In this document: piece after piece, positions 13,872-30,371 of the stretch | Numbering within the stretch: the stretch's first letter is position 1 | Layout: each line of letters opens with the position of its first letter | From: an uncultured Gammaproteobacteria bacterium | Lineage (GTDB): Bacteria > Pseudomonadota > Gammaproteobacteria > Steroidobacterales > Woeseiaceae | Assembly: GCA_937899415.1 (NCBI GenBank) | Contig: CALBPI010000011.1 | Coordinates: forward strand, 1-44,147 | DNA: 44,147 nucleotides | Direction: 5' to 3' | Translations under genes and position numbers: made by a program | The notes under the pieces: model-generated | The model's database searches: none | Told to the model about the DNA's origin: nothing | What the model saw: the letters and a program-made list of their open reading frames with translations, nothing else

Positions 13872-15515
13872 ATGTTCGCTCTGGTGCTGGCCGCGGCCGC
13901 TCTGGCTTCGCCCGCCTGGGCCGACGAAGGCTATGGCGTCGTGCTGGCCGATGCCGAGCGCGCCATGACCGACGGTGACTTCGTCGCCGGCGTGAATCGT
14001 TACCTTGAGGCGGCGCGCGTCGGTGACAGTGTTGAGACGGCGCGCCAGGCGACACTGACCGCCTACCTGTTCGGCTTCGACAACGTGGCAGCCGAAGCCG
14101 CAGTACGCTGGGCCGAGCTCGATGTGACGCCTTGGCGGGCACAGGTTTACGGCGCCATGGCGGCGCTTCGTGCCGGTGATGTCGACGAGGCCGTGAAGGG
14201 TCTGCGCGGTGTGCTCGATGATGGGGCGGACACCGCGGTGGTCTGTGAGGTGCTCGAGGAGGGTCTGTCGCGCAACGTTCGCAACGAAGACGCCCACGCG
14301 GCGTTGAAACAGGTCGCGCGGCGCTTCGATGAGGCAGCCTGCCTTTCGGCGCTGGCCGCGGCCGCAGCACTCTCGCATGACGACTTTGATGATGCCGAGC
14401 GTCAGCTTGACCGTCTGCGCAAGCTGGACGCGTTCGACAACCAGGCGCGGCTGATCGCGATGGCGCGGCTCATCGCGCTCGAGGACGTCGATGCCGCGCT
14501 CAGTGATGACGAGCTGCGGCTCGATAATGACGCCACCGTGCAGGAACAGATTGAATACGCCTTCCTGCATGCGCGCGCCGAGCAGGATGAAACGGCACGC
14601 AATATGGTCGAGCTTCTGCGCAGCGAGTTCCCCGGCGATGCCGACGTGCTGGAAGCACTGGCCGTGCTGCAGCTGCAGGGTGGGGACCCGCAGGCCTCGC
14701 GTCGCAGCTTTCTGGAGCTGCTCGCGTCGGGCGAGAAGACGGCCGACGCGCTGTTCTACCTGGCGCGCTTCGCTGAGAGTGACCGCCGATTCGACCAGGC
14801 TCTGCGTATGTACTCGCAGGTCGACAGCGGCTCGCTCGCGGTCCCCGCACAGCAGCGCGCCGCAGCCTTGCTGCGAGAGAGCGATGGCGTGCCTGCGGCG
14901 ATCTCGCACATCGACGATTTCGTCGTCCGTCATCCGCGCTTTGGGCTCGACCTGCTGCCCGTGAAAGGGTCGCTCTACGCGCGCGGCGAGTTTTATGAAC
15001 AGGCGCTGGCGGCTTACGACACCTATGTCGAACTCAAGCCGCGCGCTGAGTTCGCCTGGCTGGCGCGAGCCGACGCGATTTTGCAGTCGGGCGAGCTCGA
15101 TGACGCCATCGCGGCATTCCGCGACGTCGTTGATCGCTTCCCGGATTCGCCCAACGCGCTCAACGCGCTGGGCTACACGCTGGCGGACCGGACGCGCAAG
15201 TTTCGCGAGGCCGAACGGCTTATCGACCGGGCACTGAAGATGGAGCCGGACAACGCGGCCATCATCGACAGCAAGGGCTGGGTGCTGTTCCGACGCGGCA
15301 AGCTCAAGCAGGCGCGCGAATACCTCGAGCGGGCCTGGGAAGACCTGCCGGACCCGGAAGTCGCTGCCCACCTCGGCGAGGTCCTCTGGCGCATGGGTGA
15401 AGAACAGGAAGCGCGAGACCTGCTTGAGGAAGCCTGGCAGCGCTTCCCGGGTGACAGCATTCTGCGCGACACCATCCGTCGCCTGCTCGACGACGGGCCG
15501 CTGACGCGGAGCTGA
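13872..15515 (+). CDS. Exported tetratricopeptide-repeat protein
   Basis: The protein (547 aa) begins with a short signal peptide (MFALVLAAAALASPAWA) and consists largely of helical TPR-like repeats. The clearest are in the C-terminal third: NALGYTLADRTRKFREAERL, then SKGWVLFRRGKLKQAREYL, then HLGEVLWRMGEEQEARDLL. TPR proteins are protein-binding scaffolds; no enzymatic motif is visible. A gene of this type commonly lies between hemA and lolB in gammaproteobacteria, pointing to an envelope role, perhaps linked to lipoprotein or outer-membrane assembly. The ATG at 13872 gives a clean signal peptide. A TTG at 13809 would add 21 residues. The lolB start follows the stop by one base. Confidence 0.87.
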   Translation: MFALVLAAAALASPAWADEGYGVVLADAERAMTDGDFVAGVNRYLEAARVGDSVETARQATLTAYLFGFDNVAAEAAVRWAELDVTPWRAQVYGAMAALRAGDVDEAVKGLRGVLDDGADTAVVCEVLEEGLSRNVRNEDAHAALKQVARRFDEAACLSALAAAAALSHDDFDDAERQLDRLRKLDAFDNQARLIAMARLIALEDVDAALSDDELRLDNDATVQEQIEYAFLHARAEQDETARNMVELLRSEFPGDADVLEALAVLQLQGGDPQASRRSFLELLASGEKTADALFYLARFAESDRRFDQALRMYSQVDSGSLAVPAQQRAAALLRESDGVPAAISHIDDFVVRHPRFGLDLLPVKGSLYARGEFYEQALAAYDTYVELKPRAEFAWLARADAILQSGELDDAIAAFRDVVDRFPDSPNALNALGYTLADRTRKFREAERLIDRALKMEPDNAAIIDSKGWVLFRRGKLKQAREYLERAWEDLPDPEVAAHLGEVLWRMGEEQEARDLLEEAWQRFPGDSILRDTIRRLLDDGPLTRS

Positions 15516-15516
15516 C

Positions 15517-16134
15517 ATGCGCCGGCGCGCCCTGGTCCTGCTTGTTGCGCTGCTTGCGGGCTGCGTCACCAGGGGTGTGCAGGAGCTGCCCGAGATTACC
15601 GACTGGCCCATGCGCCAGGATGTGCTTGGGGCGCTTGAGCAGTGGGAACTCGTCGGCCGCATTGGCATCCGAACGCCCGAGGACAGCTCCAGCGGCTCGC
15701 TGAGCTGGCGCCAGCGCGGCGTGGATTTCCGTGCCGAGATCGATGGCCCGCTGGGCATTGGTGGCGTGCAAATGGTGGGCGACCCCCGCCGCGTCACGCT
15801 CTCGGGCAGCAAGATCGACACCGTGACGGTGCCCGACCCCGAGCGCGAACTCTGGCGCCAGACGGGACTGCGCGTGCCGGTCGCGGGACTGCGCTACTGG
15901 CTGCTGGGCGTACCTCTGCCCGGTGAGTCTGCGGATATTGTGTTCGGCGAGGACGGCCTGCCCGTGAGCATGACGCAGTCGGGTTGGCGCATCGACTACA
16001 CGGAATACCGGCAATGGTCGCTCAACGCACTGCCACGCCGAATCAAGGCCGAATCGGGAGACACGCGCCTCACCATTGTGGTGCGTGACTGGCGAATTCC
16101 AGGCGCCGCCACGTCGACTCAAGCGCGAAATTGA
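15517..16134 (+). CDS. lolB: Outer-membrane lipoprotein receptor LolB
   Basis: LolB accepts lipoproteins from the periplasmic carrier LolA and inserts them into the outer membrane. The 205-aa precursor has a lipobox LLAGC with modifiable Cys16, and family segments near ALEQWELVGRIGI, SGSLSWRQRG, PLGIGG and LRYWLLGVPLPG. Length matches the family. It is tightly coupled to the TPR gene. The usual next gene, ispE, is missing: the lolB stop (16132-16134) overlaps the -35 element of the tRNA-Gln promoter. Confidence 0.9.
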   Translation: MRRRALVLLVALLAGCVTRGVQELPEITDWPMRQDVLGALEQWELVGRIGIRTPEDSSSGSLSWRQRGVDFRAEIDGPLGIGGVQMVGDPRRVTLSGSKIDTVTVPDPERELWRQTGLRVPVAGLRYWLLGVPLPGESADIVFGEDGLPVSMTQSGWRIDYTEYRQWSLNALPRRIKAESGDTRLTIVVRDWRIPGAATSTQARN

Positions 16135-16159
16135 CAGCCAGCAAGCGGCTGACCACAAT
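16131..16159 (+). promoter_or_regulatory. Predicted sigma-70 promoter of tRNA-Gln
   Basis: A perfect -35 TTGACA (16131-16136), a 17-base spacer and -10 CACAAT (16154-16159) precede the tRNA by about 80 bases. The -35 overlaps the lolB stop codon. The first 12 bases (TTGACAGCCAGC) and the end (GAC, one base, ACAAT) recur in the promoter of tRNA-Met at 19966. Confidence 0.7.
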
Positions 16160-16237
16160 CCCGTCTCGGGCCAGCGGCACCCACAGGCGACAAAACGATC
16201 GCCGGGGCCTCTGGTTGCAAGGACGTCGGTCACCAAC

Positions 16238-16312
16238 TGGGGTGTAGCCAAGCGGTAAGGCAACGGGTTTTGATCCCGTGATGCGCAGGTTCGAATCCTG
16301 CCACCCCAGCCA
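16238..16312 (+). tRNA. tRNA-Gln (anticodon TTG)
   Basis: The acceptor arms TGGGGTG and CACCCCA pair fully, with discriminator G and an encoded CCA (16310-16312). The anticodon loop TTTTGAT between ACGGG and CCCGT gives anticodon TTG. The T arm (GCAGG TTCGAAT CCTGC) is standard. Its position just before prs matches the gammaproteobacterial gene order. Confidence 0.97.
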
Positions 16313-16353
16313 CCGACGTTTCATGAAACTCGCACGCCGTTGGGGGGTTGTCG

Positions 16354-17307
16354 GTGGAAATAGCCAGTCTCGCGTTGTTCTCGGGCAACGCGCATCCCAA
16401 ACTCGCCGCCGATATTGCGCGCCATCTGCGCGTGCCGCTCGCCAAGGCCCATGTAGGCAAGTTCTCCGACGGTGAGACCACGGTCGAAATCCTTGAGAAC
16501 ATTCGTGGTCGCGAGACGTTCATCGTGCAGCCCACGTGCCCGCCCGCCAATGACCACCTCATGGAGTTGCTGGTCATGGTCGATGCCTGCCGACGCGCTT
16601 CGGCGTCGCGGATCACGGCGGTCATTCCCTACTACGGCTATGCGCGCCAGGATCGTCGCCCGCGCGCGTCGCGCGTGCCGATTACGGCCAAGCTCGTCGC
16701 CGAGCTCATCGCTGCGGCTGGCGTCGACCGCGTGCTGACCGTCGACCTGCATGCCGATCAGATCCAGGGTTTTTTCGATATTCCCGTGGACAACGTCTAC
16801 GCGAGCCCGATCCTGCTCGGTGATGTCTGGAAGAAGAAGTACCCCGAGATGGTGGTCGTGTCGCCTGATGTCGGCGGCGTGGTCCGCGCCCGAGCCCTGG
16901 CTAAGCGGCTCGACGACGCCGATCTCGCCATCATCGACAAACGCCGCCCGCGCGCCAACGTTTCCGAGGTGATGAACATCATCGGTGAGGTGTCGGGCAA
17001 GCAGTGTGTGCTTATCGACGACCTCGTCGATACGGCGGGCACGCTGTGCCAGGCTGCGGCTGCCCTGAAGGACCACGGCGCCCAGAGCGTGGCGGCCTAC
17101 ATTACGCACCCCGTGTTCTCAGGGCCCGCCGTTGAGCGGATCTCCAATTCCCAGCTTGACGAAATCGTCGTTACGGACACGATTCCGCTGAGTGAAGCTG
17201 CGGCTGCCTGCGGCCGCATTCGTCAGTTGTCGACGGCTGAGCTTTTGGCCGAAACGCTGCGGCGTATCTCTGACGAAGAGTCGGTCTCAAGCCTTTACGT
17301 CGATTAG
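16354..17307 (+). CDS. prs: Ribose-phosphate pyrophosphokinase (PRPP synthetase)
   Basis: Prs transfers pyrophosphate from ATP to ribose 5-phosphate, making PRPP for nucleotide, histidine, tryptophan and NAD synthesis. The protein has the N-terminal [11 protein letters not shown], the [12 protein letters not shown] flexible-loop segment, the metal-binding [12 protein letters not shown] and the PRPP-binding loop [13 protein letters not shown] chose GTG 16354 (317 aa; E. coli Prs is 315 aa) because a run of six G lies 6 bases upstream. The in-frame TTG at 16348 directly abuts that run and would leave no spacing. It lies just after tRNA-Gln. Confidence 0.96.
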
Positions 17308-23454: not shown

Positions 23455-24528
23455 TCACTCTTCAAGCGAGTCGACGGGCTGCGCGATGGTCATCACCGAA
23501 TCGCCCGCGCGCACCGGCGGCCCTGCGAGGCCGTAGATACCGTAGCCCGAGGCGGGTGCGGTTACAGTTTCGACGGTGACGCCTTGATAGTCCCGGATCT
23601 CGCCCAGGCGCTCACCAGCCTCAACCTTGCCGGCGCGCCGTGTGGGATACCACAAGCCTGAGTGTGTTACCGGGACCGATTGCGTACCGTCGAAGTACCG
23701 CGGCGTCACTGCGGCTTGAGATTCGGGGCCTTGTAACAGGCCCAGATACGTCAGTGCGCTGCGCATGCCGCTGACAATCAAATCAACGTGAACGTCGTCG
23801 CGGCTACCATTCTGGCCGGCTTCCACGAGCACGGTCGGCAGACCTTGTGCGACGGCCTGGCGATTGAGCGACCGGCGCTGATCCACCTGCTGCTGGGTAT
23901 TCATGCTGTAGCGCACGATGTTGGGAAAGCCCATCGATTGCGCGGTACCCAGCGCCTGCTCGTAGTCCGTGGCGAGCGGGCCGCCGTAGACGCCGACGAA
24001 AGCTTCAAGCCACTCGGCGCCATCGCCACCGTGGACATCAAATACGAAATCCGCGGCGGGAATGACAACGGTAGAGAGTACGTGCGCGATGCGCTCGGCT
24101 TGCGTGCCGTCCGATGACCCCGGAAACGAGCGGTTCAGGTTCTTGCGGTCGAACGGATTGACGTAGGGCGCGCGGTCCTCGTAGGCCGAGACGTGAGCAA
24201 CGCGCACGATGATAACCGTCCCGGAAAGCATCTCTGGCGTGATCTCGCGCGCGAGTCGATCGGCGGCCAGGATAGGCGGGAATTCGTAACCGTGAACGCC
24301 CGCGACCATAAGGACGGTGGGTCCGTCCCGTTCGCCGGCAATCACGGACAACGGGATGAACGTTGCCGGGTCTTCCTTGCCGGCAGGAACCTCAAGCTGC
24401 AAGTCTGCGCGTTCGCCACGCGCGACATTGACGTCCGCCAGCTGCACGGCGGGTTCCGCGCCGCCACACCCGCCGCACACCAAGAGGGCCATTGCGCCAA
24501 GCGCATTCTTCAGCCGTCGACCAAGCAT
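23455..24528 (-). CDS. Exported aspartoacylase/succinylglutamate desuccinylase-family hydrolase
   Basis: The family (M14-like AstE/ASPA) comprises zinc enzymes that hydrolyse amide bonds of N-acyl amino acids. The 357-aa protein shows zinc ligands His79 and Glu82 (GVHGYEF) and His166 (FDVHGGD), a substrate-binding-like segment DRKNLNRSFPG (about 127-137), and a candidate catalytic Glu236 in VLVEAGQNG. The C-terminus folds as the usual beta domain (about 275-350). An N-terminal signal with Cys18 and Cys21 suggests export, perhaps as a lipoprotein, although the lipobox is atypical. Most family members with known substrates are cytoplasmic. It is the last gene of a five-gene operon, 2 bases after the permease, with a GGAG ribosome site. 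Confidence 0.8.
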   Translation of the reverse strand: MLGRRLKNALGAMALLVCGGCGGAEPAVQLADVNVARGERADLQLEVPAGKEDPATFIPLSVIAGERDGPTVLMVAGVHGYEFPPILAADRLAREITPEMLSGTVIIVRVAHVSAYEDRAPYVNPFDRKNLNRSFPGSSDGTQAERIAHVLSTVVIPAADFVFDVHGGDGAEWLEAFVGVYGGPLATDYEQALGTAQSMGFPNIVRYSMNTQQQVDQRRSLNRQAVAQGLPTVLVEAGQNGSRDDVHVDLIVSGMRSALTYLGLLQGPESQAAVTPRYFDGTQSVPVTHSGLWYPTRRAGKVEAGERLGEIRDYQGVTVETVTAPASGYGIYGLAGPPVRAGDSVMTIAQPVDSLEE

Positions 24529-24530
24529 GG

Positions 24531-25772
24531 TTACTCCGAGCTTGAGAATTGCGGCAGGTCGTCGATGCGCGCCGGATCGAAAGCTGCGTCACCGAATAGC
24601 CCAGGATAATAGAATGCCCGCAATTCCGCGTGGAACGCCCTGACGCTCTCTTCGTAGTCGAGTACGGCCTCAACGTTGGTACCCGCGAGCTTCTGAAGCC
24701 ATCGCTCCAACAAGGCGGGCGGTGCGGCAATCGCGAACCACGCTGCGAGCTGATCTCGCCTGGCGCGCCCTTTCCGGTAGGCCGCCGACAGCGATTCGGT
24801 CGTCTGGTCGCCGACCTGCTGGAATGCGTAGTACCAACCCCAGTCGAAGCCGTCGCCCGTGTGGGTGTATCCCGTCCACTCGGGATGGCGCGCGACGAAC
24901 GGCGCCATGGTGTCAGCGACGGGCAGGTCCCAGGCATCGTTGACGGCCTCGCGCTGGGTCATGAGGATGTCGGCACCCGATGGCACCGACACTAAGCGAT
25001 CGATGATCACGCGGCCGCCGGCAGGCAACAGGGTGCCGAGCAGCACCCAAACGCCGATCAGGCTCGCGAGAATCACGGAGGCGGGATGTTGCCGGCTGCC
25101 CAGCCACAGGCAGACCACCGTCCAGAACAAAACGTAGGCGGTCACCATGGCGGTCGCACCCAGCAGTGACGCAGCGCTCGTACCGCTGACGACACCGCCC
25201 ACGAGCAATGGCCCTACTGCCGCAATGAGCACGCCGATGGCGCGCAGTAGCGAGCGAGTCCACCAGAGCCTGTTGTCGTTACCCGCTGAAGCCACGAGTA
25301 AATTGAAGCGCCCCGCCGTGCGCTCGCCGGCCTTGAGGTCATGCAACAGAAAAATGAGCACGAGCGGCAGCACGAACGCGGCGAAGAACGCGAAGTCGAA
25401 TCTGCCGATCAGGGCGAGCTCGGGATTGCCGGGATCGTGCTCGTAAATCTGACCCTCGAGCGCGAGCATGCGCAGCCGATGTTTCCACGATGACGCGTCG
25501 CGTTGCCCCATGGCGGCAAAGGCAAAATCCGAGGGTGGGTCGTAGGTAAGATGGAAGCTGTAGTAGGCGGCGCTCCCCCAATCACCCTGGGCGGAAAACT
25601 CGGACGTGCGGTCCGTGCTGTCGGCATCGACCAGGAATGCGATGCTCTGACGTTGCTGCGCGACCTCCGCCAGCCCCGACCAGACTGCGAAGCCCGAGAA
25701 GAGAAGCACCACAAGAACCCAGACGCGAAACGCGCGGTCGCGCAGCAGGAACCAGACTTCCGATTGGAGCAT
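24531..25772 (-). CDS. ABC-2 type permease, DUF3526 type (second)
   Basis: The 413-aa protein has an N-terminal helix, a large extracytoplasmic loop (about 40-140), then five or so membrane helices (about 150-290) and a second soluble loop. The layout and the FFAAFVLPLVLIFLLHDLKAGERTAGR segment match DUF3526-type ABC permeases, which usually occur as pairs with one ATPase. The start at ATG 25772 lies 11 bases after the upstream permease stop; the longer open frame overlaps that gene and is rejected. It is predicted to pair with the 25784-27220 product. Substrate and direction of transport are unknown. Confidence 0.84.
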   Translation of the reverse strand: MLQSEVWFLLRDRAFRVWVLVVLLFSGFAVWSGLAEVAQQRQSIAFLVDADSTDRTSEFSAQGDWGSAAYYSFHLTYDPPSDFAFAAMGQRDASSWKHRLRMLALEGQIYEHDPGNPELALIGRFDFAFFAAFVLPLVLIFLLHDLKAGERTAGRFNLLVASAGNDNRLWWTRSLLRAIGVLIAAVGPLLVGGVVSGTSAASLLGATAMVTAYVLFWTVVCLWLGSRQHPASVILASLIGVWVLLGTLLPAGGRVIIDRLVSVPSGADILMTQREAVNDAWDLPVADTMAPFVARHPEWTGYTHTGDGFDWGWYYAFQQVGDQTTESLSAAYRKGRARRDQLAAWFAIAAPPALLERWLQKLAGTNVEAVLDYEESVRAFHAELRAFYYPGLFGDAAFDPARIDDLPQFSSSE

Positions 25773-25783
25773 TGCGGATCCGC

Positions 25784-27220
25784 TCAAGGTTTCAGCCTCC
25801 CACCGGCCCAGGCCAACAGGAGGGTCAACACGGCGATCCAGGCTGCGAGCATCGCAATAGACCACTGGGCACCGGCCACCCGATCCGAAGCGCTGGCCGA
25901 TTCGTACTGAAACGAGTCGAGCACCTGCCAGTTGGAGGCGTCGATTCGCGCGCGCTCCCAGGAGGCTTCATCGCGATTGCGATTGATGTCGTCGGTGTAG
26001 GACAGCGCTTCGGCATGCGCGCGGTTCAGTCCCTGCACGAAGTTGATGCGAAGTGCTTCGGCCTGGCGAAGGAAGCGGTGGTAGTGGAACAGATCTGTTC
26101 CCGCCAGTGTTCGCGAGGCGACCGCGACTGCCAGCGTTGGTGTCAGCCAGCCGTGTGCGCTGACGCGGTCGGACTGGCGCATCTCAGCAGCCATGCGCCG
26201 GTCTGCGTAGACGTTCAGCGTCTCGGTCAGGTCGGCCTCAGCCTTCTGCGCGAGTACGCCGCGAATATTGATGTCGAGTTCTTCGATGCTGGCTGCGCCG
26301 TACTCCGCGAGCAGGCTGGCTTGCACGTCGTTGTAGACGGAATCATCGACATCATGTCCGTCGCCAAGATCTCGAATCTCGGTGAGCATCGTGAGCTCGG
26401 TCTCGATCTTCCCCGCCAGCGGCGCCGTTTGCGTGGTGGTGTTGACGGCGGCGGCGGGTAGCACGAGCGTCAGTGCGAGCCAGGCTGCAGCAAGAACCGC
26501 AATAGCCGTCGCGCGGTTTTCGGCCAGGGTGGAAACCAGTAGCGTCAGCGCGACCCAAATCAACAGGTAGACCAGATAGACACCAAGCAGAGATGCCGCT
26601 GCAAGCACACGCTCGCCGGCACTGAGTGCGATGACGCCACTGATGAGCACAGGCACAAGCAATAGTGTTACGAACAGTGCGAGTGCCAGCAGCTTGCCCG
26701 CCACGAGCCTGCGCCCCGTCAGACCCTGTGCGAGCAGCGCCGGCAGCGTACCTGCTTCCCGTTCCCGGACGATGGCGCCGTGGCCGAGCAGGATGACCAG
26801 CAGCGGCGCGAACAATTGGTACATCAAGGCAGGCGTCAGCCAGGACAAGCCGCCAAGATCTGCACTGCTCGCGGACGCCGAAAACGTTGCCGAGTTCTGG
26901 CGGTGGCCTTCGAGAAACAGCGTCTGCCCCGTGATCGCGTCGAGACCGGGGTCGAAGATTGCGAGCGGCATGGGCGCCCGGAAGACATAGTGGCCGTAAT
27001 GCACCATGCGATGCGGATGACGGTCGGGCTGATCGAGAAACGTCTCTTCCGAGACTTCCTGGTGGTGCTCTCGCTCATGCGCTTCGGCCTCAATGCGCAG
27101 GTTTGTGAGCGCACTGACACCGACAAGGATGACGACGAACAGCGCGACAACCGCGAGCGCCAGCTTCGAGCGCAGCCAGTACCGCCACTCATCGGTGGTG
27201 ATCGTCAGCGTGGCACTCAT
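25784..27220 (-). CDS. ABC-2 type permease, DUF3526 type (first), with His-rich loop
   Basis: The 478-aa protein has an N-terminal helix (about 20-40), a periplasmic loop (about 41-125), membrane helices at about 128-265, a second large loop and a C-terminal helix. HGAIVREREAGTL is typical of ABC-2 permeases of the ABC-transporter maturation/DUF3526 group. The first loop holds seven His within 30 residues (48, 52, 53, 68, 70, 74 and 77), including the RHPHRMVHYGH run, a plausible metal-binding site. The ATG overlaps the ATPase stop by 4 bases, so the two are translationally coupled. Confidence 0.85.
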   Translation of the reverse strand: MSATLTITTDEWRYWLRSKLALAVVALFVVILVGVSALTNLRIEAEAHEREHHQEVSEETFLDQPDRHPHRMVHYGHYVFRAPMPLAIFDPGLDAITGQTLFLEGHRQNSATFSASASSADLGGLSWLTPALMYQLFAPLLVILLGHGAIVREREAGTLPALLAQGLTGRRLVAGKLLALALFVTLLLVPVLISGVIALSAGERVLAAASLLGVYLVYLLIWVALTLLVSTLAENRATAIAVLAAAWLALTLVLPAAAVNTTTQTAPLAGKIETELTMLTEIRDLGDGHDVDDSVYNDVQASLLAEYGAASIEELDINIRGVLAQKAEADLTETLNVYADRRMAAEMRQSDRVSAHGWLTPTLAVAVASRTLAGTDLFHYHRFLRQAEALRINFVQGLNRAHAEALSYTDDINRNRDEASWERARIDASNWQVLDSFQYESASASDRVAGAQWSIAMLAAWIAVLTLLLAWAGGRLKP

Positions 27221-27957
27221 ACCGCGAGCTGGGTGTCGACAGTACGGCCCGAGAATGCGCGGTGGACGGTTTCGGTTTCGATCCGGCCGTCTGTGGGTGC
27301 AGAGAATTCACCCACGAGCTTGCCGCCGCGCAGCAATCCAATGCGGTCCGCAACTTGACATGCACCGTAGACATCGTGCGTCACCATGAGGATCGTCTTT
27401 CCGGTGTCGGCAAGGTCGCGGATAAGGTCGTGGAACTCGTCAATGGCGCTCGGGTCCAGCCCTGACGTCGGCTCGTCCAGCAGCAGGATATCCGTGTCCC
27501 TGAGAATGGCCAGTGCGATCGCCACCTTCTGCCGCATGCCTTTCGAATAGTCTTTGAGCCTGCGCGCCCGCGAAGCCGGCGCGAGCGACACGCGATCCAG
27601 AGCGGCTTCCAGCGCGGGCGAGTCTTCGGACCGGCCAGCAAGTTGAAGAAAGTAGCGCAGGTTCTCAAAGGCGTTCAGGTGCTCGTACAGCGACGCCGCC
27701 TCGGGGAGGTAGGCAATCGCAGCGCGTGCCGCTTTGTGATCGGCGCTGACGTCTTTACCGTTCACCAGCACACGGCCGCCAGCGGCCGGCAGAAAACCCA
27801 GGAAGCTCAGCAGCGTTGTGGACTTGCCCGCGCCGTTGCCGCCCAGCAGCGCATAGACCTCGCTGCTGCTGAGGCTGAACGAGATCCCGCTCAGGACTTC
27901 CTTGTCCGAGCGGTAAACCTGTAACGCGTCTGCTTCCAGTTTCACAGTGGTCGTCAC
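27217..27957 (-). CDS. ABC transporter ATP-binding protein
   Basis: The 246-aa ATPase has Walker A GGNGAGKST (39-47), a Q-loop region, the signature-like YSKGMRQK, Walker B ILLLDEPTSGLDP and the switch His in VTHD. It powers the two downstream DUF3526 permeases. The start is a GTG at 27957, 23 bases after the TonB-dependent receptor stop, so receptor and transporter are very likely one transcript. Its sequence class (single-domain, DrrA/NatA-like) is more common in exporters or membrane-remodelling systems than in solute importers, and no periplasmic binding protein is encoded nearby. Confidence 0.92.
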   Translation of the reverse strand: MTTTVKLEADALQVYRSDKEVLSGISFSLSSSEVYALLGGNGAGKSTTLLSFLGFLPAAGGRVLVNGKDVSADHKAARAAIAYLPEAASLYEHLNAFENLRYFLQLAGRSEDSPALEAALDRVSLAPASRARRLKDYSKGMRQKVAIALAILRDTDILLLDEPTSGLDPSAIDEFHDLIRDLADTGKTILMVTHDVYGACQVADRIGLLRGGKLVGEFSAPTDGRIETETVHRAFSGRTVDTQLAV

Positions 27958-27980
27958 GTCGCCGGTACTCGCAACCTGGC

Positions 27981-30077
27981 TTAGAAGCGGAAGTCCGCTG
28001 AGACACGGAAGAACTGCGGGATGCCGGGCTGCACCCAGACGTTTGCGAATGAGTTGGTGTAATACTCTTCGTCGAACAGGTTATTGACCTCTGCCCGCAA
28101 TCCCAGCGACTCCGAAACCTCATAGCTCGCGGCGATTCGTGCCGTCGTGTAGTCGGGCAGCCTGAAGGTCGGGTCACCGAATTCACCGCTGCGGTCGTCG
28201 ACATAGGTGATGCCACCGATGAGCGTGAGCGGTCGTCCAGCCAGTTCCATCTCCTGCGCCACTTGCACGCTCAGCTGATGCTCCGGAACGTTGAGGAGGT
28301 CCGAGCCGGCCGGAATGAAGGCAAACGAGATGAAGTCCGTGTAGTCGTTCTTCGTTTCGGCATCGACGTAAGCATAAGACAGCCACAGGCTCGTTTCGTC
28401 GGTGACGTTACCGACGAGATCAATCTCGATCCCCTGGCTGCCCGCTTCGCCAACGGCCGTCGGATTGAAGTCGGCGTCGAAGGTCGCGATGTTCGACTGT
28501 TCGAGATCGAAGAACGCAAATGTACCGACGAGCGCGCCGTCGTTAAGCGCGAACTTGACGCCCACCTCGGTCGATTCCGAGATGTTGGGGTCGAGCCCGT
28601 TCTGATCCGTTGCGCCGGACAGAGGCCGGAAGTTTTCGCCGTAGACCGCGTAGATCGACACCGTATCGGTCGCCTGGTAGACCACACCAAATTGCGGGCT
28701 CACGCGAGACTCCGAGTACTCGGAGGTCGAGCTCGACAGCCGGTTGTTGAGTGATTGCTCGTAGTCGTCAAAACGGGCGCCCACGCGGATGTCCAGCTTG
28801 TCGGTCAGGCTGATCTGATCCTGGATGTAGAAGCCCACCGATTCCTGCGTTTCAACACGATCGAGCTGCGGCGCCAGGACGAGGCCCGACGCCGGGGAGT
28901 TGCCATAGACCGGATTGAAGATATTGATGCTCTGATCCGTGGTTCGGTCGCGAAAGGCAACCTGATCGTTCTCGAACTCATCCGCGTCGAGGCCAATGAT
29001 GATGCGGTGCTGCAGGTTCCCCGTTTCGAAGCTGCCGCTCAGCTCTGCGCGGAAGACCTGGTAGGTCGCATCGTAGTCGCGGCTGCGGCTGAAGCGGCCA
29101 AAGTTTCCGGCCGCGTCCGGGGCACCGAAACCGTTTTCTGATGCCAGCCCGTCCAGTTCTGTCTCGCGGTAGTTGACGCCGACGAGCGCGCTCCAGTCTT
29201 CATTGAAATCGTGCTGGTACTCGATCTGATGGCCGAGCACGCCCGTTTCGATCGGGCCGTAGCTCGGTTCGCCGAGGAAGCGGCTCTCTGGAATCAGGCC
29301 CAGCTCGTCATCGATCGCGATCACGCCACGATCGAACGGCGTTTCCTGGTCGCTGTATTCCATTTCATAGATGAGCTGGCTCGTATCGCCGATACGCCAG
29401 GCAATCGAGGGGCTGAACAGCAGCTTTTCCGTTTCGATCGTGTCGCGGAAACTTTCGGCATCCTCGTAGGCGCCGACGATACGAATGGCGACCGTATCGG
29501 ACAGTGGCGTGGTGTAGTCGAAGTCGGCCCGGTACGTGCTGAAGCTGCCCGCAGAGACGGAAAGTTCACCTGCCGTCTCGAATGTCGGCCGTTTGGTGAC
29601 CAGGTTGACGGTACCGCCGGGCTCGCCGCGACCGTACAATGCGGCGCGCGGCCCTTTGAGGACTTCCACCGACTCAACCCCGGACAAATCCCGCGCACCA
29701 CCGAAGCCGCGTCCGGCGTTGAATCCGTTTACGAGGAAGTTGCTCGGCAGGTTCTCATCCCCGACAAAGCCACGAATAGCGAAGCTGTTCCAAAGGCCGC
29801 CGAAGTTGTTTTGCCGGGCCACAGATGCTGACAGGTCCAGCGCCTGGACGAGATCGACAGAGCCCGCGTCGCGCAGTGTCTGCGCGTCAATCTTGAGTTC
29901 GGCCTGAGGGATTTCGAAAGGCTCAAAATCGCCTTGGTACGCCTGTCGCGTACCGATGACGGTGATCTGATCGATCTCGGAGCCTTCGGAACCGTCTGAT
30001 TGGGCTGAAGCAACGTCAGACCAAAGTAGGGCCAAGGCTGCGCCGAGCAAGCAAGGCGCACAGGATTTGATGTTCAT
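27981..30077 (-). CDS. TonB-dependent outer-membrane receptor
   Basis: The 698-aa precursor has a signal peptide (to about residue 25, DVASA), a TonB-box-like DQITVIG, a plug domain (about 45-160, with LVQALDLSASV, RGFVGDE, VEVLKGPRAALYGRGEPGG) and a 22-strand-type barrel. It ends with Phe (VSADFRF), the outer-membrane insertion signal. The PGGTVNLVTKRP segment is characteristic of siderophore-type receptors. Ligand specificity cannot be read off. The ATG 30077 has a strong ribosome site (GGAGAG, 5-base spacing); the longer open frame is leader. It is the first gene of the operon and carries the palindromes described at 30120 and 30247 upstream. Confidence 0.92.
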   Translation of the reverse strand: MNIKSCAPCLLGAALALLWSDVASAQSDGSEGSEIDQITVIGTRQAYQGDFEPFEIPQAELKIDAQTLRDAGSVDLVQALDLSASVARQNNFGGLWNSFAIRGFVGDENLPSNFLVNGFNAGRGFGGARDLSGVESVEVLKGPRAALYGRGEPGGTVNLVTKRPTFETAGELSVSAGSFSTYRADFDYTTPLSDTVAIRIVGAYEDAESFRDTIETEKLLFSPSIAWRIGDTSQLIYEMEYSDQETPFDRGVIAIDDELGLIPESRFLGEPSYGPIETGVLGHQIEYQHDFNEDWSALVGVNYRETELDGLASENGFGAPDAAGNFGRFSRSRDYDATYQVFRAELSGSFETGNLQHRIIIGLDADEFENDQVAFRDRTTDQSINIFNPVYGNSPASGLVLAPQLDRVETQESVGFYIQDQISLTDKLDIRVGARFDDYEQSLNNRLSSSTSEYSESRVSPQFGVVYQATDTVSIYAVYGENFRPLSGATDQNGLDPNISESTEVGVKFALNDGALVGTFAFFDLEQSNIATFDADFNPTAVGEAGSQGIEIDLVGNVTDETSLWLSYAYVDAETKNDYTDFISFAFIPAGSDLLNVPEHQLSVQVAQEMELAGRPLTLIGGITYVDDRSGEFGDPTFRLPDYTTARIAASYEVSESLGLRAEVNNLFDEEYYTNSFANVWVQPGIPQFFRVSADFRF

Positions 30078-30146: not shown

Positions 30147-30246
30147 ATAGGCGTCCTGTCCTTGTTTTTTGCCGTTGGGTGAGTTGCAAAGATCGGCGTC
30201 ATCGCCGAATAGGGTCGGCGCGCAAAAATCCTGCTGCGGCTGCAAT

Positions 30247-30259
30247 GTTATATCATAAC
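30247..30259. promoter_or_regulatory. Zur-box-like palindrome overlapping extended -10 elements
   Basis: GTTATATCATAAC matches the known gammaproteobacterial Zur core GTTATA-N-TATAAC at all but one base. The minus strand reads TGTTATGAT (30260-30252), a near-perfect extended -10 element, which would drive the receptor operon with a leader of about 165 bases. The plus strand also has an extended -10-like TG-T-TATATC facing the methyltransferase gene at 30372. A bound repressor here would block both. The AT-rich palindrome stands out from its GC-rich surroundings, but overlapping -10 elements alone could also explain it. Confidence 0.5.
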
Positions 30260-30371
30260 AACGATGCCGCGGAGCAACTGAGCGCAAGCAGGGCGCGTGC
30301 GGCGCTGTGTCAGTCAGCTCTGCCAACTGATTTCGAGGTCCGAGCGCCCTCAATCAGCTAGGATGCGCGGC

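Follow-up and report, generated by a model that had tools for sequence, protein, structure and literature searches.

The DNA stretch analysed here (hereafter the window) comprises 44,147 nucleotides, positions 1 to 44,147 of contig CALBPI010000011.1 (assembly GCA_937899415.1) of an uncultured gammaproteobacterium of the family Woeseiaceae, and harbours a five-gene operon coding for a TonB-dependent outer-membrane receptor, an ATPase and two permeases of an ATP-binding cassette (ABC) system, and a zinc hydrolase. We lean towards regarding this operon as a Zur-repressed zinc-scavenging unit of the ZnuK/ZnuGHI type supplemented with a periplasmic hydrolase, the mechanism of which can be drawn in outline. 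The four-gene part made up of the receptor and the ABC genes is of a known kind, named in Caulobacter in 2014; the hydrolase-bearing five-gene form, the NosY-like fold of a permease and its His/Glu motif appear to be new, none of them having been found in the accessible part of the open-licence literature.

Gene organization

All five open reading frames (ORFs) lie on the minus strand, from position 30077 down to 23455. The first (27981..30077, 698 aa) codes for the receptor, which belongs to the siderophore-receptor subfamily and is ZnuK-like in its position and predicted regulation, with the Plug and TonB_dep_Rec_b-barrel domains (PF07715 and PF00593), the second (27217..27957, GTG start, 246 aa) for the ZnuG-like ATPase (PF00005, ABC_tran), the third (25784..27220, 478 aa) for the ZnuH-like ABC-2 permease 1 (PF12679 and PF12040, i.e., ABC2_membrane_2 and DUF3526), and the fourth (24531..25772, 413 aa) for the ZnuI-like ABC-2 permease 2 (PF12040). 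The fifth (23455..24528, 357 aa) codes for a probably exported zinc hydrolase of the AstE/AspA fold (PF24827, AstE_AspA_cat). The Pfam matches of all five proteins are above the family cut-offs. Successive genes are separated by 23, -4, 11, and 2 bases, so the tight packing on one strand is as an earlier sequence-only reading of this DNA had described it. The arrangement is not due to chance, because the identical gene order was found again elsewhere.

The putative Zur operator

The receptor gene and a divergent methyltransferase-like gene, which begins at about 30372, are separated by a 294-bp intergenic region common to both sides, and it is here that a palindrome, TGTTATATCATAACA, is situated at positions 30246-30260. 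It matches TGTTATNNNATAACA exactly and, with up to two mismatches allowed, has no second match in the window (0.11 expected). The palindrome lies 167-185 bp upstream of the receptor start codon, and the 17-bp core of this putative Zur operator, TTGTTATGATATAACAT (30245..30261, minus strand), is identical to the core of the znuK/znuG site of Caulobacter crescentus given in Table 1 of PMC4176598. With a weight matrix built from four published repressed sites of Caulobacter, the operator scores 26.0 bits, a value equalled by none of 200 shuffles in either the 300 or the 1200 bp upstream. A scan for sigma-70 promoters found none. According to the accessible part of PMC4176598, the znuK/znuG promoter fragment is shifted by purified Zur, znuK and znuGHI respond to zinc and Zur, being repressed in the presence of zinc, and the loss of znuK results in a growth defect at low zinc. 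The window operon is very probably under zinc control and expressed on zinc shortage.

The sequence-only reading had matched the gene set to no named uptake system known to it, which can be corrected, since the set corresponds to the Zur-repressed znuK/znuGHI genes, to which it was likened by gene families, position, and the Zur site on the basis of the published description. In Caulobacter, too, a TonB receptor gene (znuK, CC1517) lies beside the genes for an ABC-2 ATPase and two ABC-2 permeases (znuGHI, CC1518-1520), and the Zur site has the same 17-bp core. The two systems differ in that the Caulobacter receptor and ABC genes form separate units, with one site printed on opposite strands, and no hydrolase appears in Table 1 of the same paper, whereas the window has five genes on one strand with the hydrolase gene last (PMC4176598, the part available). 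It is likely that receptor and ABC machine together take up zinc in the manner of ZnuK/ZnuGHI. Additional Zur-regulated ABC systems are also found in Pseudomonas aeruginosa, encoded by PA4063-4066 and PA2911-2914, PA2911 being a TonB receptor whose presumed cargo is zinc in chelated form (PMC10393844) and PA4063 a protein with a ferredoxin-like fold (PMC8561739). They differ from the window set in that PA2914 uses a binding protein, PA2913, and in that neither DUF3526 nor an AstE/AspA hydrolase is mentioned for the P. aeruginosa zinc ABC systems in the accessible part of PMC10393844.

Zur-like boxes in the source genome

With at most one mismatch allowed, the box occurs at five places in the source genome (3.94 Mb, completeness 98.41%), compared with none for the reversed-pattern control. 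They comprise this operon, a gene for a ZnuD-like receptor (best NCBIfam model ZnuD, 284.5 bits with a cut-off of 950), an operon in which a MerC gene is followed by genes for a DevA/LolD-like ATPase and a MacB-type permease, and two loci, L003 and L004, without a recognised zinc gene. In an earlier test on 300-bp regions, the loci L002, L003, and L005 of this genome had one Zur-like site each (p 0.005). There are two FUR-family genes, of which the one scanned (L111) fits the Zur model best (120 bits vs 38.5 for the next model). No match to the ABC-3 family, that of ZnuB (PF00950), was found in the source genome, and both operon permeases belong to other families.

Conservation of the gene set and of the Zur-like site

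Relatives of the operon were sought in 369 genomes of the same class, 296 of Sphingomonadales, and 385 of Alphaproteobacteria. The search for related loci gave five, one of which (L006), in Parasphingorhabdus marina (Sphingomonadales), reproduces the complete operon with its order unchanged, with 67% identity of the ATPase and 47-53% identity of the other four proteins. The hydrolase was found (E<=1e-40) in 2/369 genomes of the same class, namely the source genome and one with an orphan gene, and in 19/296 Sphingomonadales genomes, while permease 1 (E<=1e-30) was found in 4/385 alphaproteobacterial ones. Among the 19, the five genes stand in exactly this order in seven (L006, L051-L056), one (L062) has the hydrolase gene adjoining the receptor and ABC genes in convergent orientation, and in the remaining 11 it is an orphan within the stretch examined. 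The exact order is also present in Hymenobacter volaticus (Bacteroidota) on plasmid NZ_CP095065 (26-42% identity), where the annotation divides the second permease between two overlapping ORFs, perhaps owing to a frameshift. The hydrolase gene is thus last in the exact order at eight loci besides the window. With this order conserved in 7/296 Sphingomonadales genomes and on one Bacteroidota plasmid, the lack of conservation by which the sequence-only reading would have been refuted did not turn up. In an Acidobacteriota metagenome-assembled genome (L007), the ATPase, permease 1, permease 2, another TonB receptor, and the hydrolase are encoded in a row. Sets devoid of the hydrolase within the stretch are carried by plasmids of Eleftheria, Comamonas, Spirosoma, and Novosphingobium (L071-L074) and by genome G613 (L020), the last two being divergent, as in Caulobacter.

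DUF3526 is encoded in 48/296 Sphingomonadales genomes; nine of these loci were studied first and the remaining 39 were added afterwards. The identity of permease 1 to that of the window splits them into 35 loci of the ZnuH type (defined by at least 35% identity) and 13 with at most 32%, and a receptor gene lies nearby in 34/35 of the former and 4/13 of the latter. The Zur-like site was sought by one fixed rule, applied to the 1200 bp preceding the receptor gene with 200 dinucleotide shuffles per locus (smallest possible p 0.005), which supersedes, for receptor regions, the 300-bp test; that test had covered 34 regions, and its intervals for L006, L052, L056, and the L062 receptor had been placed with the palindromes already known. 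At the loci studied first (the window, nine Sphingomonadales genomes, and the Novosphingobium plasmid) a site is present at p<=0.05 in 11/11 cases, nine of them at p<=0.01 (L062, p 0.045), and at the further ZnuH-type Sphingomonadales loci with a receptor in 22/25; the latter together with the nine genomes studied first give 31/34 for Sphingomonadales. At loci of the other DUF3526 type with a receptor, a site was found in 1/4. L021 and L022, having no receptor, are outside this test. Upstream of the operon, L052 has a DUF1826 gene and L056 a MerC gene, while the upstream region of the L062 hydrolase gene is shared with a divergent DUF1826 gene; a DUF1826 protein of Francisella novicida, FTN_1758, is Zur- and zinc-regulated (PMC5786701, the part available).

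The receptor and the ABC machine

The receptor scores 326.5 bits with the siderophore-receptor model TIGR01783 (cut-off 223.5). Its passing of this cut-off, unlike the ZnuD-like receptor of the same genome, suggests that the cargo is a small metal complex. For the ATPase, the nearest solved relatives are ABCA4 and other ABCA proteins, with NosF lower in the list, and residues D161, E162, and H194 are kept in 17/17 homologues.

The transmembrane (TM) segments of permease 1, as judged from hydropathy, start near residues 20, 128, 179, 199-211, 239, and 448-455, which would place two stretches, about 39-127 and 258-447, in the periplasm in the presumed orientation. The first of them, following TM1, contains H70, H74, E104, and H106, which are invariant in 18/18 homologues and are putative metal ligands, although confidence in the model is low at residues 68-70. 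The motif is not specific to zinc sets, because it is also present at L021, a locus neighbouring a CopC/CopD gene. In the AlphaFold2 model of permease 1 (predicted local distance difference test score, pLDDT, 72.5) the predicted fold has NosY as its top match by Foldseek (TM-score to query 0.34, the large insertions being unmatched), and by VIA its best match is again NosY (7o12_E), with a Z score of 23.6 (240 residues, 3.0 A), followed by ABCA4 with Z 20.0. The copper machine NosDFY (7o12, 7o0y) is thus similar in that permease 1 superposes on NosY and the ATPase matches NosF among others. It differs from the window system, in which the two permeases are unlike each other, two large insertions reach into the periplasm, the partners are a TonB receptor and a hydrolase, and the box is of the Zur type; neither NosD nor N2O-reductase families were found among the five operon proteins or the seven flanking proteins scanned. 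Permease 2 lacks the C-terminal sixth TM segment in the window and in ten Sphingomonadales zinc-type loci, while it is present in 6/6 other loci examined, two of which (L021 and L022) come from the same class as those ten. Its DUF3526 domain would therewith end free in the periplasm. No paper on DUF3526 was found in the part of the open-licence literature searched.

That the NosY-like machine handles zinc directly is a tentative proposal, to which we give slightly less than an even chance. The NosY-like fold together with the invariant His/Glu cluster makes direct metal handling by ABC-2 machines testable.

The hydrolase

The hydrolase matches PF24827 with 80 bits (cut-off 25). The older AstE_AspA model, PF04952, was discarded, as it has no match in the source genome and PF24827 fits instead. 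In an alignment of homologues (27 sequences extracted, the partial L009 left out), H79, E82, H166, E236, N132, and R133 are invariant in 26/26; we take H79, E82, and H166 to be the HxxE...H zinc ligands and E236 the catalytic glutamate. The AlphaFold2 model (pLDDT 77.8, predicted TM-score 0.78, five sequences) is predicted to resemble most closely 3cdx and DoeB (6twm), followed by the cyanophycin dipeptidase CphZ. DoeB/EutE, the N-acetyl-L-2,4-diaminobutyrate deacetylase, shares the fold (TM-score 0.75-0.78 for most chains) and the zinc and catalytic residues. It differs from the window hydrolase, which is probably exported, is 23-24% identical in the structural alignment, and has metal uptake rather than ectoine breakdown proteins as partners; the DoeB equivalog model TIGR02994 is not reached either (92 bits vs a cut-off of 402.7). 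A combined search for "Zur" and aspartoacylase in the open-licence literature yielded nothing on zinc regulation by title.

The export signal named by the sequence-only reading needs a refinement: the N-terminus of the hydrolase is hydrophobic, but by eye it has neither a textbook lipobox nor a textbook signal peptide, whereas the N-termini of the operon homologues look, also by eye, like ordinary signal peptides. Mainly on the strength of the latter, the hydrolase is regarded as probably exported to the periplasm.

In the hydrolase tree, the window protein groups with the seven operon copies and two from Acidobacteriota, L058-L060 and the operon-adjacent L062 form a supported clade of their own, and the Hymenobacter protein another. 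Eight of the 11 Sphingomonadales orphans (L057, L061, L063-L068) constitute one clade, in which the neighbouring genes are different ones and a box is not consistently present, and they were not counted as zinc genes; in the 300-bp test a site was found in 1/8 of them (L068, p 0.040). The same test revealed sites before the orphan hydrolase genes of L058 (p 0.005) and L060 (p 0.005; its contig starts 324 bp before the match) and before that of L062 (p 0.010), so that three hydrolase genes of this clade, two of them standing alone, carry a Zur-like box of their own. No significant site was found at L059 (p 0.27), L023 (p 0.18), and L070 (p 0.55). The strict box (up to one mismatch) occurs four times in the 18 loci L051-L068 (331,517 bases), and in three of these cases a hydrolase gene follows at a distance of less than 200 bp.

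The AstE/AspA-type fold binds zinc. Since, moreover, the ABC part is without a binding protein, the hydrolase might be no longer an enzyme and act as a periplasmic zinc-binding protein in place of the absent one. This is hardly probable, as E236 and N132/R133, beyond the zinc ligands alone, are invariant in all the homologues aligned, and receptor-ABC sets with no hydrolase gene nearby are common. A recurrent hydrolase also provides a handle on the cargo, as its substrate may be the zinc-carrying ligand.

Evidence against zinc scavenging and alternative readings

Several observations weigh against zinc scavenging with the help of the hydrolase. As to regulation, the Zur-like protein L111 remains under the curated NCBIfam cut-off (120 vs 167 bits), three ZnuH-type loci miss the significance threshold for the site (L113, p 0.055; L116, p 0.080; L122, p 0.214), and by the fixed rule it is present in 0/5 loci of other lineages (L007, L069, and L071-L073 from Bacteroidota, Acidobacteriota, and betaproteobacteria). 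The boxes of many orthologous operons are variants, and a variant with TGTAAC, TGTAACNNNGTTACA, was rejected as a genome-wide motif of P. marina, having three places vs five for the reversed control. As to the hydrolase, at the ZnuH-type loci its gene lies in the operon in 7/35, next door in 1/35, and is absent within 9 kb in 27/35 (the 39 DUF3526 loci added later contain none within 9 kb), so that it is an optional part in Sphingomonadales.

The co-occurrence of the hydrolase with the ABC genes in the 296 Sphingomonadales genomes, assessed by Fisher tests that ignore relatedness, points in the same direction. The association with any DUF3526 (14/19 genomes with the hydrolase vs 34/277 without, p 9e-9) reflects mostly the operon itself. 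After subtraction of the seven operons, there is no association with the ZnuH-type set (2/12 vs 26/277, p=0.33); the 7/12 found for DUF3526 as a whole come mostly from the other DUF3526 type (5/12 vs 8/277, p 5e-5), and those five hydrolases fall in the clade without a zinc link. The latter association may be due to shared ancestry, to another system, or to a second link between both families. Co-occurrence outside the operon was, in consequence of its lack of a tie to the ZnuH-type set, withdrawn as support for zinc. A further reading to be considered is that the operon does respond to zinc starvation, with the hydrolase trimming another periplasmic N-acyl amino acid or peptide in nutrient salvage or from the cell wall. 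The fold covers amidases as diverse as DoeB, CphZ, aspartoacylase, and carboxypeptidases, there are homologues without adjoining receptor and ABC genes, and the 27 loci mentioned above have none nearby. The recurrence of the hydrolase gene in the last position after the receptor and ABC genes at eight further loci speaks against it, and we consider the other-substrate reading rather unlikely.

ABC-2 transporters mostly export, and with the ABC-2 (type V) fold, the lack of a binding protein, and another ABC system encoded in the second Zur-box operon of the source genome, the ABC part might export a zinc-binding molecule or the spent ligand, zinc entering the cytoplasm otherwise. However, no ligand-biosynthesis gene was seen in the operon or among the seven flanking proteins, and the genome is without ABC-3. 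Among 14 control genomes, only Caulobacter vibrioides has DUF3526 and only Caulobacter is without ABC-3 at E<=1e-3 (at E<=1e-12, ABC-3 is present in 11/14). Export is on these grounds improbable. In Sphingomonadales, ABC-3 (ZnuB) was found in 0/35 ZnuH-type genomes vs 35/261 others (p=0.021, with the split made after the fact), and without the split in 2/48 genomes with DUF3526 vs 33/248 without it (p=0.087), 215 genomes having neither; among 40 hand-picked genomes (ABC-3 at E<1e-20) the figures are 1/19 with and 9/21 without DUF3526. As significance is reached only after the 13 genomes of the other DUF3526 type have been split off, and relatedness is again uncorrected for, this apparent exclusion is offered as no more than weak support.

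A distant DUF3526 permease pair lies directly behind a CopC/CopD gene at L021 (7623-12256), and the DUF3526 family may include a copper branch. With the siderophore-receptor score of the receptor, the resemblance of permease 1 to NosY of a copper system, and a DUF2946 gene before the Eleftheria locus, it could be held that the metal is copper or iron instead of zinc. This is very unlikely given that the operator core is that of the Caulobacter Zur site and other boxes of the genome precede the ZnuD-like and MerC genes; znuK and znuGHI themselves respond to zinc and Zur (PMC4176598, the part available). A metal or metallophore as substrate, the latter being one of the possibilities named by the sequence-only reading, is supported, with zinc now favoured over iron.

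Proposed mechanism

Zinc scavenging by the five-gene operon would proceed as follows. At low zinc, Zur would be released from its operator (30245-30261), allowing expression of the whole operon. Through the siderophore-type TonB receptor, zinc bound in a small organic complex would enter the periplasm, where the hydrolase would cut a postulated amide bond of the ligand to lower the affinity and set the zinc free. We infer this step from the fold, the intact active site, the likely export, and the shared operon. The ATPase and the two DUF3526 permeases would constitute a NosFY-like machine, in which the His/Glu cluster of permease 1 would receive the zinc, and which would move it, or power its hand-over, towards the cytoplasm. 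Cutting of the imported ligand by the hydrolase falls, in our estimation, somewhat short of an even chance, an estimate lowered after the co-occurrence beyond the operon had failed to stand. Less probable still, and doubtful as a whole, is an undescribed pathway in which an amide-containing zinc ligand is imported by the TonB receptor and destroyed by a dedicated periplasmic hydrolase of the AstE/AspA type, with a NosY/ABCA-type machine, not an importer of the ABC-3 family, taking the zinc at a His/Glu site of its periplasmic part and then either importing it or passing it on by means of ATP-driven force. If true, the occurrence of the five-gene set in Pseudomonadota and Bacteroidota implies a widespread natural zinc ligand yet to be found. 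The name ZnuGHI dates from 2014, when it was given to a putative ABC system for zinc, and it seldom occurs, and then without a mechanism, in the accessible part of the open-licence literature.

Flanking genes and further loci

The seven proteins encoded around the operon (DUF4345, TPR/TonB_C, DUF2608, methyltransferase-like, and DUF3293 proteins among them, and one without a family) have no evident link to it. In several related loci, unlike the window, a small His/Cys-rich ORF precedes the receptor gene (L006, 3867-4172; L052, 16121-16429; L069, 2189-2491; L071, 4390-4734; L072, 4342-4692; and, by eye, L062); of the five scanned, only that of the Eleftheria locus, L071, has a Pfam match, DUF2946. 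The second DUF3526 type, found in 13/48 Sphingomonadales loci (e.g., L137, L139, L140, and L146), is mostly without a receptor nearby.

In the source genome, the near-perfect Zur box before the MerC operon (L002/L024, contig C5, about 69942) perhaps marks another ABC operon under Zur control, which could be compared with PA4063-4066. The strong Zur-like box of L003 (contig C51, about 5357; 20.6 bits), where a zinc gene was not recognised, is flanked on one side by a subtilase-like ORF and on the other by short ORFs in which, by eye, an outer-membrane barrel seems to be broken up between two reading frames. At L020 of G613, the divergently arranged receptor and ABC genes are followed by genes for an ABC ATPase and a permease (14337-16429), the latter resembling by eye the MacB-type permease behind the MerC box of the source genome, and this region is possibly a zinc island.

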